Shown piece after piece: positions 267 to 41,832 of a stretch of 41,832 nucleotides of DNA. The stretch lies in NCBI GenBank assembly GCA_937873495.1, contig CALMXZ010000006.1, positions 1-41,832 of the forward strand, in the 5' to 3' direction. Position numbers and translations under genes: made by a program. The notes beneath the pieces are model-generated. The model saw only the letters and a program-made list of their open reading frames with translations, searched no databases and had not been told where the DNA came from. Source of the stretch: an uncultured Trueperaceae bacterium (GTDB lineage Bacteria; Deinococcota; Deinococci; Deinococcales; Trueperaceae). Positions within the stretch are counted from its first letter, which is position 1, and the number at the start of each line of letters is the position of its first letter.

Positions 267-341
<75 letters not shown>

Positions 342-409
342 CCATCACGGCCCCGCGGCCGTCACTTCTTCGCCTCGCTCCTCGCGCCCGGCGGCCCGAG
401 GCGGTGCGC

Positions 410-485
<76 letters not shown>

Positions 486-536
486 GTTCGCGACCGGGTC
501 ACTCCCGAAGGTTCGCCCCGGTCGTGACCGCACGGC

Positions 537-621
537 TGGTGGGCAGGGCTGGATTCGAACCAGCGTAGGCTAAGCCAACGGATTTACAGTCCGTCCCCTT
601 TAACCACTCGGGCACCTACCC
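537..621 (-). tRNA. tRNA-Tyr(GUA)
   Basis: This is an 85-nt class II tRNA with a long variable arm. The acceptor arm is GGGTAGG/CCTGCCC with one G-U pair, and CCA is encoded. The anticodon loop CTGTAAA gives GUA. Confidence 0.95.
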
Positions 622-665
622 GCGTCATAGCCGAGGTCTCCGGCGCTTCCCTTCGCTTGAAGCAG

Positions 666-741
<76 letters not shown>

Positions 742-16604: not shown

Positions 16605-16727
16605 GATGCCGCTTCCTTCCAGCCTGCGGTTCGGAGGTGTCGTGATGACCAGAGGAACAGCCGCGCCGACCGTGCCGGGGCGCTACCGACCTCCCTCGTC
16701 CGCGCAAGGGGTCAAGTAAGGTCGACC

Positions 16728-16818
16728 GGCCGGTGTTCGGACTCGGGCGCTTGGAACGCGCCCTTACCGTTGCGGGACAGTGCCGGACTCTCACCGGACT
16801 TCCCCGAGCGGCGACCAA
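16728..16818 (-). promoter_or_regulatory. Cobalamin riboswitch
   Basis: Minus-strand RNA shows the conserved AdoCbl aptamer core in order: GGTCGCC, GGGGAAGTCCGGTGAGAGTCC, then the B12 box GGCACTGTCCCGCAACGG, then GAGTCCGAACACCGGCC closing the core. It sits between its own promoter (16823-16851) and the transporter binding-protein gene, in the 5' untranslated region. I see no strong intrinsic terminator after it, so control of ribosome access or a less obvious expression platform is more likely. Binding of cobalamin would repress the importer. Confidence 0.92.
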
Positions 16819-16822
16819 GGGA

Positions 16823-16851
16823 ACTCTACGGCGCGCCACCGGGACTGTCAA
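16823..16851 (-). promoter_or_regulatory. Promoter of the riboswitch-transporter operon
   Basis: A perfect TTGACA (16846-16851) and TAGAGT (16823-16828) are separated by 17 nt. Predicted start is near 16816, exactly at the 5' edge of the riboswitch core. The divergent zapE -10 box begins only 12 bp away (16863). Confidence 0.8.
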
Positions 16852-16859
16852 ACGGCGGA

Positions 16860-35028: not shown

Positions 35029-36042
35029 GTGCGCGTACTCGTGAGCGGGTACTACGGGGCGGGCAACCTGGGTGACGAGGCGCTCCTGGCCGGCCTCCTC
35101 ACAGGCTTGACGGCCCGAGGACACGAGCCCGTCGTGCTCTCGGCGGACCCGCGCTCCACGCGCGCGCTGCATGGCGTCGCGGCGGTCGATCGTTACTCCG
35201 GCCTGCTGCCCGCGCTCTGGAAGGCCGACGCGCTGGTCTCCGGCGGCGGCGGACTGCTGCAGGACGCGACGAGCGGCCGTAGCCTCTCCTATTACCTCGG
35301 CACCGTGCGCCTCGCCAAGGCACTGAGCAAACGGGTCGTCGTCTACGGCCAGTCGCTCGGACCGCTCACCCCGCACGGCTTCGCGCGCGCGCGGCGGGCG
35401 CTCGCGGGCGTGCCCCTCGCGCTCAGGGACCAACAGTCCGTCGCGCTCGCAGCGAGCATGGGCTACGGCTCCGTGCTCGTCGCCGACCCTGCGCTGATCA
35501 TGCCGTTGCCGGCCGGCGCGACGGGGCCGGTCGTGCCGGCCGGACGGACGGACGGGCCGGTCGTCCTGGCTCCGCGCGGTGGCCAGGAGGCGCTCAACGC
35601 CGCGCTCGCCGCGCTCGCCAGAGCCTTGCAGGCCGACGGGGTGCCACTCGTGGCACTCGCGTTCCAGCCGCGGCAGGACGACACGGCCGTCGCCGAGCTC
35701 GTCGAGGCAGCGCCGAGCGTGGTCGCGCGCTCGGCCGCCACCCCTGCCGAGGCGCTCCTGGCCATGGCGGACGCCCGCTACGTCGTGTCCGTGCGGCTGC
35801 ACGGCTGCATCCTCGCGGCTCGGCTGGGGATCGGTTTCGCCGGGCTGTCGTACGACCCGAAGGTGAAGGGGTTCCTCTCGCAGGCGGCCGCTCCGGCCTT
35901 CTCCGCGCCCGTCGACGAGCGCGCGCTCCTCAACCTCGTCAGGGCCGCTCCTCCCGCGGCCGCGCACGCCGTCGACCATCTGACCCGCTTGGCCGAGGAG
36001 GGGCTCGACTGGTTGGCGGCGACCCTGGAAGGCACGGCGTGA
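35029..36042 (+). CDS. csaB: Polysaccharide pyruvyl transferase CsaB
   Basis: CsaB adds pyruvate ketals to the secondary cell-wall polysaccharide, creating the ligand for S-layer SLH domains. The 337-aa protein has the GT-B-like opening RVLVSGYYGAGNLGDEALL, VSGGGGLLQDATSGRSLSYY (about 65), VVYGQSLGPL and the C-terminal VSVRLHGCILAARLGIGFAG followed by SYDPKVKGFL, all CsaB/WcaK signatures. The start is GTG without an obvious ribosome site. A Thermus-type S-layer is anchored in this way, consistent with the proposed lineage. Confidence 0.9.
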   Translation: MRVLVSGYYGAGNLGDEALLAGLLTGLTARGHEPVVLSADPRSTRALHGVAAVDRYSGLLPALWKADALVSGGGGLLQDATSGRSLSYYLGTVRLAKALSKRVVVYGQSLGPLTPHGFARARRALAGVPLALRDQQSVALAASMGYGSVLVADPALIMPLPAGATGPVVPAGRTDGPVVLAPRGGQEALNAALAALARALQADGVPLVALAFQPRQDDTAVAELVEAAPSVVARSAATPAEALLAMADARYVVSVRLHGCILAARLGIGFAGLSYDPKVKGFLSQAAAPAFSAPVDERALLNLVRAAPPAAAHAVDHLTRLAEEGLDWLAATLEGTA

Positions 36043-36125
36043 GGTCCGGCCGAGCCTCGCCGCCGCCGCGCACCGCCCGGTCGCCCGATGCCGGACACGG
36101 CGCTCCTTCTCATCCCGCCTTGCGG

Positions 36126-36131
36126 TACCCT
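36126..36131 (+). promoter_or_regulatory. -10 box for the leaderless TPR gene
   Basis: TACCCT ends 6 nt before the GTG at 36138. Upstream in-frame codons look non-coding. Confidence 0.5.
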
Positions 36132-36137
36132 GACTAC

Positions 36138-36947
36138 GTGCCGTTCAGGACGTCACCCGGGTTGGCGCGAGCGTGGCCGTCGGCGCGCGCCGCCGCGTTG
36201 TCGTTGGTCGTCTGCGCTCTCCTGCTCGGCGGAGCGGCTCACGCCCAAGCGGACTTCACCCAGATGCGCGACCTGCTGGCCCAGGGCTACTACAACTCGG
36301 CCGCGCGCCTGAACGGACCGGAGTTGATCGCCCATCACCCCGAGAGCGGCGAGGCCCACTTCCTGTACGCCAAGGCGCTCTACCTGACCGGCAACCTCGA
36401 GCGCTCCCAGGCCGAGTTGGACCGCGCCATCCAGCTGGCCGGCGATGCCGACCCCGGCATCGTCAACCTGCAGGGCCTCCTGCGTGCGGCAGCCGGCGAC
36501 CCGGTCGGAGCGTTGCGCGCGCTCCAGAACGCGTTCCTGCGTAGCCGCGACTACCAGTTCGCGATGGACTGGGGGCGAGTGGCGTGGCAGGCCGCGCGGT
36601 TCGACGAAGCCGTGGCGGCGTTCGACGCCGCCGCAGCTACCGCACGCGGTGGGCGCGAGCTATGGCCCTACATCGACAAGGGCAGGCTGTTCATGTTCGT
36701 TGGTCGTCTGCCGGACGCCATCTCCGCCTTCAACGCCGCCATCGACGTGTTCGAGGCGACGGACAACGGCGAGGCGCGGCCCGGCAGCCCTGCCTACGTC
36801 GAGGCCTACTACCGCATGGGTGAAGCGTACGAGCAGCTGGGAGACCTGGAGCGCGCCGAGGTCAACTACCGCGCCGCGCGCACGGCCGACCCGAACTACG
36901 CGCCCGCCATCCAAGCGCTCGACCGGCTCTCCCGCTCGTTCGAGTGA
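36138..36947 (+). CDS. Secreted TPR-repeat protein (269 aa)
   Basis: No specific family is recognised. With the GTG at 36138 the protein begins MPFRTSPGLARAWPSARAAA, followed by a hydrophobic core LSLVVCALLLGGAAHA, a good signal peptide with cleavage about residue 37. The mature part has four or five TPR-like helical pairs: SGEAHFLYAKALYLTGNLERS, GIVNLQGLLRAAAGDPVGAL, LWPYIDKGRLFMFVGRLPDAI, YVEAYYRMGEAYEQLGDLERA. It would act as a scaffold outside the membrane. It lies 95 bp after csaB with its own -10 box. Confidence 0.8.
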   Translation: MPFRTSPGLARAWPSARAAALSLVVCALLLGGAAHAQADFTQMRDLLAQGYYNSAARLNGPELIAHHPESGEAHFLYAKALYLTGNLERSQAELDRAIQLAGDADPGIVNLQGLLRAAAGDPVGALRALQNAFLRSRDYQFAMDWGRVAWQAARFDEAVAAFDAAAATARGGRELWPYIDKGRLFMFVGRLPDAISAFNAAIDVFEATDNGEARPGSPAYVEAYYRMGEAYEQLGDLERAEVNYRAARTADPNYAPAIQALDRLSRSFE

Positions 36948-37023
36948 CGGGGCTGCGGGGCCGGCATGGGCGCAGCACGGCCCGGCGCCCGGCCTACCCC
37001 GCGCCACTCTCGACCCCTTGAAG

Positions 37024-38280
37024 TCAGTTGACGAGCTTGGTGCGCTTGGCCTGGTAGTCGAGCAGCACGTAGCGACCGATGGTGCCCGGCGTGGTGAAGT
37101 AGGCCTTGCCTCTCGTCATGGCGCTGACGCGCTGGACGAACGCCACCAACTCCGGGTCGCGCGCCAGCATGAACGTGTTGACCTGTATGCCGTGCCTCCG
37201 ACACGCGCCCACTTCCCTGAGGGTCTCGCCTAGCACGAGCGGGTCGAGGCCGTAGGCGTTGCGATAGATGCGGCCGTCCGGCAGCGTGATGGCCGACGGC
37301 TTGCCGTCCGTGATCATCACGATCTGCTTCATCTCCTTGTTCTGGCGCAGGAGCAGGCGTTGGGCGAGCCGCAGCCCTTGCGCCGTGTTCGTGTGATACG
37401 GCCCGACCTGCGCCATGGCCAGGCGCTCGAGCGAGATCTCCTCCGCCCCGTTGTGGAACAGTACGAACTGAACCGTGTCGCCGCGGTACTGCGTGCGGAT
37501 GAGATGCGCGAGCGCGAGCGCGACCTGCTTGGCCGGGCTGAACCGGTCCTCGCCGTAGAGGATCATCGAGTGACTGCAATCGAGCATCACCACGGTGGCG
37601 GCTGACGAGTAGTACTCGGACTCCTGAACCCGGAGGTCCTCCTCCTGGAGGTCGATGCGGCCGCCCTCCAGCCCGTGCCGGGCCGCCTGGGCGAGGGTGG
37701 CAGGCACATCGAGGTTGAGCGCGTCGCCGAACTCGTACTCCTTCGTCGCTCCCACCGTCTCCACGCCCGTGGTCGTGAAGTGCGTGTCGTGCGAGCCGAC
37801 GCTCGAGCGACCTGCCCCGCCGAGCACGTCCTGGAGGGTGCGGTAGCCGAGGAAATCGATCGCCTTGTCCGTGAGCTCGAAGGTCGCCCTGCCGGGGTCA
37901 GCGGACGGACCGCCCGCGCCGCCCGGCGCGGGATCCTTGGCTTCGCGGGCGCCGTCCTCGCCATGCTGCGCCCGCAGGTACCCTTCCTGCTCGAGGCGCC
38001 GGGCGAGCTCGCGGGTGGCGGCCCCGAGCTCCGTGTCCATCCAGTCCTCGGCCTCGAGCGCGTTCTTGAGGACCTCCTCGCTGATCAGGTCGTTGTCGAC
38101 CAAGGCTTGAGCGATGGCGTCGTAGAGGTCCTGCATGGTGGGTCGGTGCTCGGGGTCGGGTTCGTAAGGGTTACGCTCGAAGCCGGACTGGAGCAGGCGG
38201 TCTTGCAGCATGCGCATGAGGTCGGCCATATCGAGGTCGTCGAGCGTGCCCTCGTACTTCGAGTAGCGGATCACTGCCAT
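37024..38280 (-). CDS. VWA-domain protein (partner of the ChlI/MoxR-type ATPase)
   Basis: The 418-aa cytoplasmic protein has a helical N-terminus (about 1-115; [17 protein letters not shown]), a Gly/Pro-rich linker (about 115-130) and a von Willebrand A domain (about 235-415). The MIDAS starts with [10 protein letters not shown] (DxSxS, about 237) and continues with [12 protein letters not shown] and VMITDGKP. Such VWA proteins pair with AAA+ ATPases of the MoxR/ChlI group, which remodel or metallate partner proteins. Its ATPase partner is 58 bp upstream. A CGGAGG ribosome site precedes the ATG. Confidence 0.85.
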
Positions 38281-38338
38281 GCCGGTCCTCCGTGCGCGCC
38301 GTGGCGGCGCGCGGCGCGAGCGCCTCCGGGGCGCGCCG

Positions 38339-39844
38339 TCAGTTCCACCGCGGCCGCGAACCCGGCTGGCCCGCCTCCGCGACGGTGTAACCGAGCTCCT
38401 CGCTCCGCCCGATCTGGCGCCGCGCGTAGAGGCCTTCGAGGACGAACTCGGCGCTCACGAGCGGAAGCTCGTCGGAGACGGTGGCGTCCACCCCGCCCGC
38501 GGCGCGGCTCGTGAGCGCCGCCAGCTGCGCTGCGACGACCAGCAGGTCTGGGACCTCGGCGAGCGGCGCGCGCCACTCGCCGCTCGGCAGGTCGCCGGGG
38601 AGGCGCAGGCTGTTGCCGGCTTCGAAGTACTCGACGATGGACGCCGTGTCGAGGTCAGCTCCGCGCCGCCCGAACACCTGCCCGATGGCCCGCCTGACGA
38701 TCTCCCGTGCGACGCTCTCCGCCCCCTTGAGCTCGCCTTCATACTCCAACTCGATCTTGCCTGTTACGGCCGGGAGGGCTGCGTACAGGTCGGAGATGCG
38801 GGCGACACCCTGGCCGCCGTGCGCCAGCGCCCTGCGCTCCGCGTTGCTCACCACGTTCTCGAGGAGGCTGATGGGCAGGCGTTGCGACACGCCGGAGTGC
38901 TTGTCGACCCTGGCGTCGGAGCGGGCCTGGAAGGCGACCTCCTCGACGGCCTCCGCCACGAACGCCGGCACGAAGACGCCCTCGGCGCGGTCCGTCCAGG
39001 CTTCCTGGTGCGTGATGGCCATGCCGTCCTCGACACGCTGCGGATAGTGCGTACGCACCTCGCTGCCGATGCGGTCCTTGAGGGGGGTGATGATCTTGCC
39101 CCGCGCCGTGTAGTCCTCCGGGTTGGCGCTGAACACCAGCATGACGTCGAGCGGGAGGCGCATGGGGTAACCCTTGATCTGGACGTCGCCTTCTTGCATG
39201 ACGTTGAAGAGCGCCACCTGGACCTTACCCGCCAGGTCCGGGAGCTCGTTGATGGCGAAGATGCCGCGGTTGGCGCGCGGCAGGAGCCCGAAGTGCACGG
39301 CACGCTCGTCTCCCAGCCTCGTTCCGAGCCTGGCGGCCTTGATGGGATCGATGTCTCCGACGATGTCGGCCACCGTGGTGTCCGGGGTGGCGAGCTTCTC
39401 GACGTAGCGATGCTCGCGCGGCAGCCACCCGATGGGTGCCTCCTCGCCGAGTTCAGCCACCAACCCCCGGCCCTCCGCCGTGAGGGGCGCGAAGGGATCG
39501 TCGTGCAGCTCGGTGCCCTCCAGGTACGGGACCTCCTCGTCGAGGAGCGTGACGAGTTGGCGGAGGATGCGGGTCTTGGCCTGCCCCCTCAAGCCGAGCA
39601 GGATGAAGTTGTGGCGGCTGAGCAGCGCGTTGACCACCGCCGGCACGACCGTCTCCTCGTAGCCGACGACCCCGGGGAACAGGGGTTCCCGGCGCTGCAA
39701 GGCCGCGACGAGGTTGGAGCGGATCTCGTCTCGTACGCTTCGACCCGCCGAGGCCTCCCAGCGTGTGCCGCGCAGCTCGCCGAGGGTCGTGGGGCGCTCC
39801 TTGTGCGTGCTGGACGTGCTTCCTGCTGCCCGCGAAATCGTCAT
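38339..39844 (-). CDS. ChlI/MoxR-type AAA+ ATPase
   Basis: The AAA+ ATPase (501 aa) resembles the magnesium-chelatase I subunit and MoxR/RavA proteins. Motifs in order: the P-loop region [17 protein letters not shown] (about 80, glutamine replacing part of the usual GxxGxGKT), [14 protein letters not shown] (Walker B region with Glu), [23 protein letters not shown] and the sensor region EAWTDRAEG. The first Lys/Thr of a standard Walker A are shifted, so ATP hydrolysis should be checked. The ATG at 39844 follows a -10 box by 5 nt. No bch/cob gene is near, so chelation of a tetrapyrrole is unlikely; a MoxR-VWA chaperone role is inferred. Confidence 0.82.
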
Positions 39845-39849
39845 GGCCA

Positions 39850-39858
39850 ATGCTAGCA
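39850..39858 (-). promoter_or_regulatory. Extended -10 promoter for the leaderless AAA+ gene
   Basis: The minus strand reads TGC-TAGCAT, ending 5 nt before the ATG; no Shine-Dalgarno is seen. Confidence 0.6.
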
Positions 39859-40016
39859 CCAGCGCATGAGCCGCCCTGTCGGCGGGGCTGAGTTCGCCTA
39901 CCGGCTCTAGGCATGGACCCGGCGAGCCCGCACCTCGTCGGAGCGAGCAGACGGTTGCCTCTGCCGAGCGCCGTCGAACGCGACCGCGGCTGCTAGCGGC
40001 ACCGGCCGCCGAGAAC
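39859..40016 (-). other. Spacer between the small-RNA terminator and the AAA+ gene promoter
   Basis: No gene or clear structure is seen in this 158-bp part of the 340-bp divergent spacer. It carries only scattered short GC-rich inverted repeats. The spacer's other contents are the small RNA and the promoters listed separately. Confidence 0.4.
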
Positions 40017-40113
40017 CAAAAGGATTGACCCTGCGTGGGGGGCGCAGGGTCAAAGAGAGGAGATGGTGGAGGGCACAAAGGCCCTCTCCCTGGTTCCCGG
40101 GGGGAAGGAACCA
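40017..40113 (-). ncRNA. Putative small RNA with C-rich loops
   Basis: No known family is recognised. The minus-strand transcript predicted from the promoter at 40119-40148 would be about 97 nt. In transcription order it has hairpin A (TGGTTCC/GGAACCA, 40091-40113, 9-nt loop TTCCCCCCG), hairpin B (GAGGGC/GCCCTC, 40069-40086, loop CTTTGT), a CU-rich single strand (CCATCTCCTCTCTTT) and hairpin C. Hairpin C is a perfect 11-bp stem (40025-40053, loop CCCCCCA) followed by TCCTTTTGG, a terminator tail. The C-runs and CUCCUCU are complementary to Shine-Dalgarno sequences, as in RsaE-type regulators. Orientation is set by the tail, which exists only on this strand. It could instead be an attenuator leader for the AAA+ gene. 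Confidence 0.55.
40025..40053 (-). terminator. Intrinsic terminator-like hairpin ending the small RNA
   Basis: An 11-bp perfect stem (TTGACCCTGCG/CGCAGGGTCAA) with a 7-nt C-rich loop is followed on the minus strand by TCCTTTTGG. On the plus strand the flank is AGAGAGGAG, so termination in that direction is unlikely, and no plus-strand gene ends here. Confidence 0.6.
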
Positions 40114-40118
40114 CACGG

Positions 40119-40148
40119 ATTCTACATCAAGACGGTTTCGCATGTCAT
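40119..40148 (-). promoter_or_regulatory. Promoter of the putative small RNA
   Basis: ATGACA (40143-40148, five of six consensus bases) and TAGAAT (40119-40124, five of six) are separated by 18 nt on the minus strand. The predicted start falls at 40112-40113, exactly where the first hairpin begins. Confidence 0.55.
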
Positions 40149-40170
40149 CCGTTCCAGACGCTTTGTCGCC

Positions 40171-40179
40171 TGTTATCCT
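40171..40179 (+). promoter_or_regulatory. Extended -10 promoter for leaderless cinA
   Basis: TGT-TATCCT ends 5 nt before the cinA ATG, and no ribosome site is visible. Confidence 0.6.
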
Positions 40180-40184
40180 CACTC

Positions 40185-41624
40185 ATGAACAGCGTCAGAA
40201 GCGCGGAAGTGATCGCCGTCGGCACGGAGCTGCTCCTTGGCGAGGTCGTTGACACGAACAGCGCCCGCGTCGCCGCCGACCTGGCGGAGGCGGGGGTTGA
40301 CGTCTACTGGTCTCAACGCGTCGGCGACAACCAGGCGCGGATCATGGCCGCGCTCGACGCCGCGCTGGACCGCAGCGACCTGGTGGTGCTGACCGGCGGG
40401 CTCGGCCCGACCGACGACGACCTCACGCGGGAGGCCATCGCCGCCGTAGTGGGCGAGGCGCAGACCGTCGACCCGGAGATCGAGGCGTGGCTGCGGCGAC
40501 GCTTCGCCGCCAACAATCGTCAGATGCCCGAGTCCAACCTCCGGCAGGCGCACGTCATCCCCTCCTCCGAGGTCCTTCCCAACCCCGTCGGAACCGCGCC
40601 GGGCTGGTTGGTGCGCCTGACCAGGGGCGACAGGGCGCGTTACATCGTCACCCTGCCCGGACCACCCCGCGAGCTGGAGCGCATGTGGCGCCAGGAAGCC
40701 CTCCCCCGCCTGCCGCTGCCGGGCAGCAAGCTGTTCGTGCACACCTTCAAGACGATCGGCGTCGGGGAGTCGCTCGTGGCGGAGATGCTCGGCGAGCTCA
40801 CCGACCAGGCGAACCCCAGCGTCGCCACCTACGCGAAGGTCGACGGCGTTCATGTGCGCGTGGCCGCCAAGGCCGACGACCTCGACCGCGCATCCGCCCT
40901 CGCTCGCCCGACCGTCGAGCGGGTCGCGGCCACGCTCGGCGACAGCGTGTGGGGCACCGACTCGGACGACCTGCCGCGCCTGGTCGTCTCGGCCCTACGG
41001 GAGCGGGGGCAGCGGCTCGCCGTCGCAGAGGGCAGCACCGGCGGCGTCCTGACCGGCTACCTGGTCGGGGCCGACGACGGCGTCGACCAGCTCGGCAGGC
41101 CCAAGGCCTCGAACGGCAAGCCGGCGGTTCCGGACCAGTTGGCCCGACGGTCCGGGGCGGTAAGTGGCAGCGTGATAACATGCGACCTGGAAACCATGAG
41201 AGCGCTCGGCGTACCCCTCGGACTACTGCAGAAGCTGCCCTACGGGGCAGTCGAGGTAGTGGTCGCACTGGCCGCCGCAGTCAGGGCGTTCTTCAAGGCG
41301 GACCTTGGCGTCGCCAACCTCGGACCTTGTGTCCCCGTGCTGGCCGCCTCGAACGACGAGTCAATCGCTGAACCAGGCGTCGGGAAGCCTACGCGCATGC
41401 AGGCCGGTGAGGCGCCCCCAGCGGGGTCGCCAGGCGGCCTGCCGGCAGTACCCGGCGCCAAACCGGTAGGAGACGACCGAACGATCACGCGTGTGGTCAT
41501 CGCGATAGCCACTGCGAGCGGAACCTCCGTCAAGACCCTGGACCTGCCACCGCTTGGTGGGCCATGGCAACGAGAACGGTCCGCTTTCACTAGCCTTCAC
41601 CTCCTCCGGTCGGCGCTGCGCTGA
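40185..41624 (+). CDS. cinA: CinA-like protein with degenerate C-terminal deamidase domain
   Basis: The N-terminal COG1058 domain of CinA (about residues 1-170) hydrolyses nucleotide-type pyrophosphates such as ADP-ribose. It is intact here: EVIAVGTELLLGEVVDTNSA, VLTGGLGPTDDDLTREA, GTAPGW, LPGPPRELERMW. The C-terminal NMN-amidase (PncC) domain is recognisable but altered. The normal AESCTGG is AEGSTGG (about 281), moving the serine from its place, and the Lys of the YSNEAK segment is Thr (ITCDLETMRALG). Two low-complexity insertions (about 291-320 and 400-430) interrupt the domain. So the N-terminal activity is probably kept and the amidase lost. ATG 40185 follows a -10 box by 5 nt. recA follows, as in Deinococcus, without ligT between. 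Confidence 0.88.
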   Translation: MNSVRSAEVIAVGTELLLGEVVDTNSARVAADLAEAGVDVYWSQRVGDNQARIMAALDAALDRSDLVVLTGGLGPTDDDLTREAIAAVVGEAQTVDPEIEAWLRRRFAANNRQMPESNLRQAHVIPSSEVLPNPVGTAPGWLVRLTRGDRARYIVTLPGPPRELERMWRQEALPRLPLPGSKLFVHTFKTIGVGESLVAEMLGELTDQANPSVATYAKVDGVHVRVAAKADDLDRASALARPTVERVAATLGDSVWGTDSDDLPRLVVSALRERGQRLAVAEGSTGGVLTGYLVGADDGVDQLGRPKASNGKPAVPDQLARRSGAVSGSVITCDLETMRALGVPLGLLQKLPYGAVEVVVALAAAVRAFFKADLGVANLGPCVPVLAASNDESIAEPGVGKPTRMQAGEAPPAGSPGGLPAVPGAKPVGDDRTITRVVIAIATASGTSVKTLDLPPLGGPWQRERSAFTSLHLLRSALR

Positions 41625-41628
41625 CGTT

Positions 41629-41666
41629 CGTCGCCGTGGGGCCGGCACGCCGGCCCCACGGCGACG
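41629..41666 (+). terminator. 18-bp hairpin between cinA and recA
   Basis: CGTCGCCGTGGGGCCGGC pairs perfectly with its complement at 41649-41666 over a 2-nt loop, just after the cinA stop. It is very stable but has no T-tract after it. It could partly terminate cinA transcription or stabilise its 3' end while allowing read-through into recA. Confidence 0.5.
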
Positions 41667-41737
41667 AGACCGGCTGAAGCGCCATAAGGGAAGGCCCGCC
41701 ACGGGTCCTCCCGTATCTGAACGGAGGATGCGGGCTT
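41667..41737 (+). promoter_or_regulatory. recA leader
   Basis: Seventy-one bp hold a GGAGG ribosome site (41723-41727) 10 nt before the recA ATG. I see no convincing LexA- or DdrO-type palindrome here, and only weak -10-like matches, so recA may rely on read-through from cinA. Confidence 0.4.
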
Positions 41738-41832
41738 ATGGAAGACCAGCGCAAGAAGGCTCTTGATTCTGCGTTGTTGCAGATTGAGCGGCAGTTTGGT
41801 CGTGGGGCGGTTATGCGGTTGGGGGCGGTGCC
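41738..41832 (+). CDS. recA: Recombinase RecA, N-terminal fragment (runs off window)
   Basis: RecA drives homologous strand exchange and the SOS response. Thirty-one codons are present: [20 protein letters not shown] followed by GRGAVMRLG, the diagnostic N-terminal helix and start of the core. The ATG is 10 nt after GGAGG. An overlapping ATG at 41728 is out of frame. Gene order cinA-recA is typical of Deinococcota and several other phyla. Confidence 0.95.

Follow-up and report, generated by a model that had tools for sequence, protein, structure and literature searches.

A predicted small RNA gene between cinA and an AAA+ ATPase gene belongs to a new Trueperaceae RNA family with C-rich unpaired sequences

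The window analysed here, a stretch of 41,832 nucleotides from an uncultured Trueperaceae bacterium, carries a compact intergenic element. It is flanked by cinA, on the plus strand with its ATG at 40185, and by the gene of an AAA+ ATPase, on the minus strand with its ATG at 39844; both genes appear leaderless (40174-40187 for cinA and 39842-39859 for the ATPase gene). As summarized in Table 1, the minus strand bears a sigma-70-like promoter, two hairpins (SL1 and SL2), a CU-rich single strand and a perfect 11-bp terminator-like hairpin (SL3), and all of these were found at the places given in an initial annotation made from the sequence alone. The element order on this strand is that of a stand-alone transcription unit. 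Within 5.8 kb of surrounding DNA (36000-41832), the promoter was the sole sigma-70-like site, with 0.2 expected, and SL3 was the strong one of two terminator-like sites. Spacing from TAGAAT places the predicted transcription start 7 nt past this hexamer, at 40112 (-), on the first base of SL1, in agreement with the earlier prediction. The two C6 loops (SL1 and SL3) and the CUCCUCU of the linker, also noted earlier, are present in the window RNA, and the SL2 loop is not C-rich. Directly 3' of the SL3 stem lies TCCTTTTGG, and the U-tract is imperfect in the window RNA and in its relatives. The folding energy of the RNA region was -48.7 kcal/mol versus -35.4 ± 3.3 kcal/mol for shuffled sequences (z = -4.0, 0 of 200). 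Elsewhere the window holds a four-tRNA gene cluster (270-741, minus strand) and a cobalamin riboswitch (16711-16855, minus strand; Rfam RF00174, 41.5 bits).

Table 1. Predicted small RNA, its parts, the neighbouring promoters and the second RNA locus of the same genome
Feature	Position	Strand	Basis
Sigma-70-like promoter of the small RNA, ATGACA-N18-TAGAAT	40119..40148	-	promoter scan
Predicted small RNA, type A, ~97 nt (SL1, SL2, CU-rich strand, terminator-like hairpin, tail)	40015..40112	-	fold, homologues, covariation
SL1, stem GGUUCCU/GGGAACC, loop UCCCCCC	40092..40112	-	fold
SL2, stem GAGGGC/GCCCUC plus outer GG/CC	40065..40090	-	fold
CU-rich single strand CACCAUCUCCUCUCU, presumed target-binding seed	~40054..40068	-	near-identity across 13 type A sequences
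SL3, perfect 11-bp terminator-like stem, 7-nt loop CCCCCCA	40025..40053	-	fold, compensatory changes
Tail TCCTTTTGGT, imperfect U-tract	40015..40024	-	sequence, terminator scan
-10 TAGCAT of AAA+ ATPase gene, leaderless-type, 5 nt before ATG 39844	39850..39855	-	conserved GGTGCTAGCAT-type motif
-10-like TATCCT of cinA, leaderless-type, 5 nt before ATG 40185, divergent from the small RNA	40174..40179	+	sequence; relatives similar
Type B small RNA of the same genome, one copy (L168, L279)	G000:C14:37231-37317	-	R1/R2 match

Homologues of this RNA, hereafter type A, were detected by blastn in several genera among 39 Trueperaceae genomes. A covariance model for type A (R1, cut-off E ≤ 0.1) matched 29 of the 39 genomes, and its matches over the whole phylum (111 genomes) comprised only Trueperaceae and one weak, doubtful match of 25 bits. 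R1 also picked up paralogues, among them another locus of the genome that contains the window (matched at G000:C14:37231-37312, minus strand), which lies downstream of a replication-initiator-like gene and carries a CUCCCA-type sequence in both hairpin loops. A model of these type B RNAs (R2, built from eight sequences) likewise gave matches confined to Trueperaceae when run on the whole phylum. Each model detected the other type in this genome: R2 found the type A locus of the window with 44.3 bits (E = 2.7e-7), and R1 found the type B locus with 33.5 bits (E = 6.0e-5). Clear matches to type A or type B combined cover 29/39 Trueperaceae genomes and 14/17 genera, and the genomes without a clear match to R1 or R2 include all of g15, g16 and g17. 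Among the matches listed by a pattern scan, at least five were true relatives; most were chance hits outside Deinococcota, as R1 showed with at most 26 bits among the 80 loci scanned.

Most genomes hold only one to three copies of the family RNAs. Type A-like copies are multiplied in G024 (five matches, L173-L175) and in G025 (eight, L180, L181 and L182); three of the G025 copies have their downstream sequence in common and stop close to the ends of contigs, which suggests an array of repeats or a mobile unit. Behind one type A RNA (L008/L241, G011:C6), the 3' arm of the terminator hairpin and the stretch downstream of it are partly tandem-duplicated.

The stems of both types showed compensatory change. 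In the alignment of type A and A-like RNAs (27 sequences), 90% of the stem cells were paired and both-side changes occurred in 15 of 17 pairs (6/6 modelled SL2 pairs and 9/11 SL3 pairs), and in that of type B (25 sequences) the corresponding values were 98% and 11 of 17, counts that lean towards the modelled structure because both alignments were fitted to it. The covariation score for type A was 0.524 versus 0.218 after shuffling (0/500) and at most 0.154 with slid partners; that for type B was 0.434 versus 0.207 and at most 0.183. Stem swaps such as CCCUGCG/CGCAGGG, CCUCGAG/CUCGAGG and CCCAGUG/CACUGGG are visible by eye. Conservation of the stems through compensatory changes in related Trueperaceae is what the initial annotation had anticipated for a genuine RNA. 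Its promoter fared less uniformly: a TANNNT -10 recurs in the aligned relatives at a similar distance from SL1, but the -35 is less conserved. GU combinations outnumbered AC combinations in stem cells (16 versus 7), and the minus strand is therefore favoured as the sense strand.

SL1 was left out of the covariance model and judged by separate folds, in which it was kept as a hairpin built from unrelated sequences, GGUUCCU in L004, CAGUUUAG in L010 and GAUUGG in L012. Three of 12 short pieces folded alone (L001, L002 and L011) favoured an alternative pairing, and the full-length fold of the window RNA restored SL1. The C6 loop of SL1 occurs in some lineages only and is missing in several relatives.

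While the stems vary, the unpaired sequences are fixed. What type A relatives keep is the single strand CAUCUCCUCU together with a terminator loop of the CCCC type; the CU-rich strand is identical or nearly so in 13 type A sequences, and its core AUCUCCUCYCU is retained in paralogues. Type B mostly displays CCUCCCA in both hairpin loops. The earlier assignment of this segment as a small RNA is strongly supported by its homologues across many genomes, the compensatory changes in its stems, a recurring -10 and paralogues. Type A is the founder of a previously undescribed family of Trueperaceae small RNAs, to which type B also belongs; the Rfam searches revealed no small RNA family curated for Trueperaceae, and the literature search gave no match for Truepera together with sRNA.

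For these RNAs, Rfam searches at gathering and relaxed thresholds returned no family over the cut-off, the only sub-threshold matches being 6C, sX13 and ar14. For 6C (RF01066), the score was 22.2 bits against a curated threshold of 47, and none of the 39 Trueperaceae genomes gave a match over the cut-off, those below it being chance-level and at other places. 6C is marked by two hairpins with loops of at least six C, a pattern that SL1 and SL3 of the window RNA fit and that several relatives lack at SL1. Like the Trueperaceae RNA, 6C/B11 of Actinobacteria has C6-loop hairpins, the last of them terminator-like, and B11 pairs with G-tracts at ribosome-binding sites; unlike in 6C/B11, the stems here are different, the linker is invariant and type A has an extra hairpin. 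Against ar14 (RF02344), type B scored 19.0 bits with a curated threshold of 58.8, and type A gave no match at E ≤ 5. Ar14/cuckoo (NfeR1) of Alphaproteobacteria resembles the Trueperaceae family in holding a C-rich anti-Shine-Dalgarno (anti-SD) motif unpaired in several freely diverging hairpins and in its multi-copy siblings; it differs in that the Trueperaceae host belongs to a different phylum and is without Hfq, and the ultraconserved unpaired CCUCCUCCC of ar14 is absent, its place being taken by CCUCCCA in most type B loops and by AUCUCCUCU plus CCCC in type A. With sX13 of Xanthomonas (RF02232), no sequence homology was shown (16.7 bits, curated threshold 50); the likeness lies in three hairpins with C-rich loops, and sX13 represses Hfq-independently via G-rich motifs. 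RsaE/RoxS-type RNAs of Firmicutes, whose C-rich motifs pair with Shine-Dalgarno (SD) sequences, are unrelated in sequence and gave no Rfam match to the Trueperaceae family in the searches made.

Membership of 6C, ar14 or sX13 was thus ruled out by the Rfam thresholds. One mark of Hfq-independent C-rich anti-SD RNAs as a functional class is that C-rich motifs stay conserved and unpaired while the stems vary. Both RNA types show it, and the Trueperaceae RNA is probably a new family within this known class. By analogy of design, it most likely works like 6C, ar14 and sX13. Of these, sX13 represses translation at G-rich motifs without Hfq (PMC3771888), B11/6C represses through redundant C-rich loops (PMC10470900) and in ar14/NfeR1 the stems diverge while the anti-SD motif that they carry stays fixed (PMC10746234). 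Because known RNAs of like design act in this way, a trans-acting repressor of SD-led mRNAs is to be expected here.

Anatomy and conservation together point to a small RNA of about 97 nt that would be transcribed from its own promoter and stop at the terminator-like hairpin. Its stems would form a scaffold presenting fixed C-rich sequences, namely CAUCUCCUCUCU in the single strand and the loop of the terminator. In analogy to the known RNAs, these C-rich parts would pair, free of Hfq, with G-rich SD-type sequences of several mRNAs, and translation would be blocked by pairing at these sites. We regard such a free-standing, trans-acting, Hfq-independent anti-SD-type riboregulator with putative targets as reasonably probable. 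Consistent with an Hfq-free setting, a search for the Hfq gene, in which the positive controls were found, detected it in 0 of 39 Trueperaceae genomes, a result that speaks to absence of the gene and not to activity. In 300 kb of the window's own genome, the most enriched motifs before starts were GGAGG (19 versus 4) and AGGAG (21 versus 6), with which AUCUCCUCU and the CCCC loop of type A and the CCUCCCA loops of type B can pair on grounds of complementarity. AGGAG stands at only about 11% of the starts in these 300 kb, so many genes seem to be SD-poor or leaderless.

The initial annotation had proposed a trans-acting regulator of SD-led genes, which is the best-supported mechanism by analogy (ar14/cuckoo, 6C/B11, sX13 and RsaE), but the complementarity tests were negative. 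Over six genomes of the genus, matches to the 13-nt seed complement AGAGGAGATGGTG with at most one mismatch were overall not above the reversed control. Its near-matches fell within ORFs or antisense to them, and apart from the RNA gene itself none coincided with a recognisable start. Seed or loop matches of at least 6 nt to start regions, in 300 kb of the own genome and with rough start calls, did not exceed those of shuffled versions. Since these tests failed to support specific targets, binding of the invariant pyrimidine strand to a protein or to the ribosome, for instance by mimicking the 3' tail of 16S rRNA, is a serious rival to pairing with mRNAs. Protein binding could equally explain the invariance of the strand, which comprises at least ten invariant single-stranded bases with no enriched long complement in the genomes, and its CACC..UCCU..UCU pattern, which we take to resemble the anti-SD tail of 16S rRNA, was counted for the ribosome mimic. 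On the other hand, type B has a different linker and yet shows CCUCCCA in two loops, as expected of redundant seed loops, and the known C-rich small RNAs target mRNAs; we therefore consider protein or ribosome binding unlikely.

An attenuator or leader in the 5'-UTR of the ATPase gene, the other function initially proposed, agrees with the position of the RNA on the ATPase strand some 170 nt upstream of the gene and with the presence of type A beside the ATPase gene at 13 of the 30 ATPase loci scanned. However, the leaderless-type ATPase promoter, GGTGCTAGCAT or a close variant, is found upstream of the gene in most genomes displayed, with the RNA present or absent, and because the motif is kept either way, the ATPase gene appears independent of transcription through the hairpin. 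At many of the remaining ATPase loci, cinA and the ATPase gene are near neighbours and lack the RNA; in G023, G001, G024 and G025, copies of type A or A-like RNAs lie away from the ATPase gene. Because the gene has its own promoter, conserved in RNA-less Trueperaceae genomes, the attenuator was dropped as very improbable. An element that is only a terminator or a palindromic repeat and does not function as a small RNA would suit the multiple copies in G024, G025 and G001 and the partial terminator duplication in G011; the invariant unpaired sequence, the co-conserved hairpins, the promoter upstream, the low copy number of most genomes and a position conserved over several genera speak against it, and we give it very little credence. 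The hairpins are symmetric and the plus strand bears AGAGGAGATGG, as a leader of cinA on that strand might, but the promoter, the T-run and the GU bias indicate the minus strand, the leaderless-type -10 of cinA lies downstream of the RNA region, and RNA copies exist without cinA, making this the least probable of the readings.

If the anti-SD-type riboregulator is real, a conserved C-rich RNA in this Hfq-free lineage would add a further, apparently unrelated case of the ar14/6C/sX13 design. It would also offer a test of whether C-rich RNAs discriminate between SD-led and leaderless mRNAs.

Upstream sequences hint at how part of the family is controlled. In most genomes, a tandem GTAAGAAT-N3-GT(A/C/G)AG box precedes type B at an almost constant spacing and sits immediately before the -10 (for example L280, L283 and L287). 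The tandem box also stands upstream of two type A copies that come from genera other than that of the window (L010 and L011). Tandem boxes with an 11-bp period are typical of OmpR/PhoB-family regulators. Type B follows this conserved tandem GTAAG box, which suggests activation by such a regulator; at least part of the family, namely type B and some of the type A copies, would probably be turned on by a response regulator of the OmpR/PhoB type. A wider picture, which we find rather doubtful, would have the sibling C-rich RNAs of both types, as many as eight or more in one genome, form a family-wide, Hfq-free network in Trueperaceae, partly under a two-component response regulator. In these bacteria, with their many seemingly SD-poor or leaderless genes, the network would act as a global brake that silences only the SD-led subset of mRNAs. 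The window's own genome holds seven GTAAG-box matches with up to one mismatch, including those near a pilin gene (L197), glmS (L196), an HD-GYP regulator (L195) and type B.
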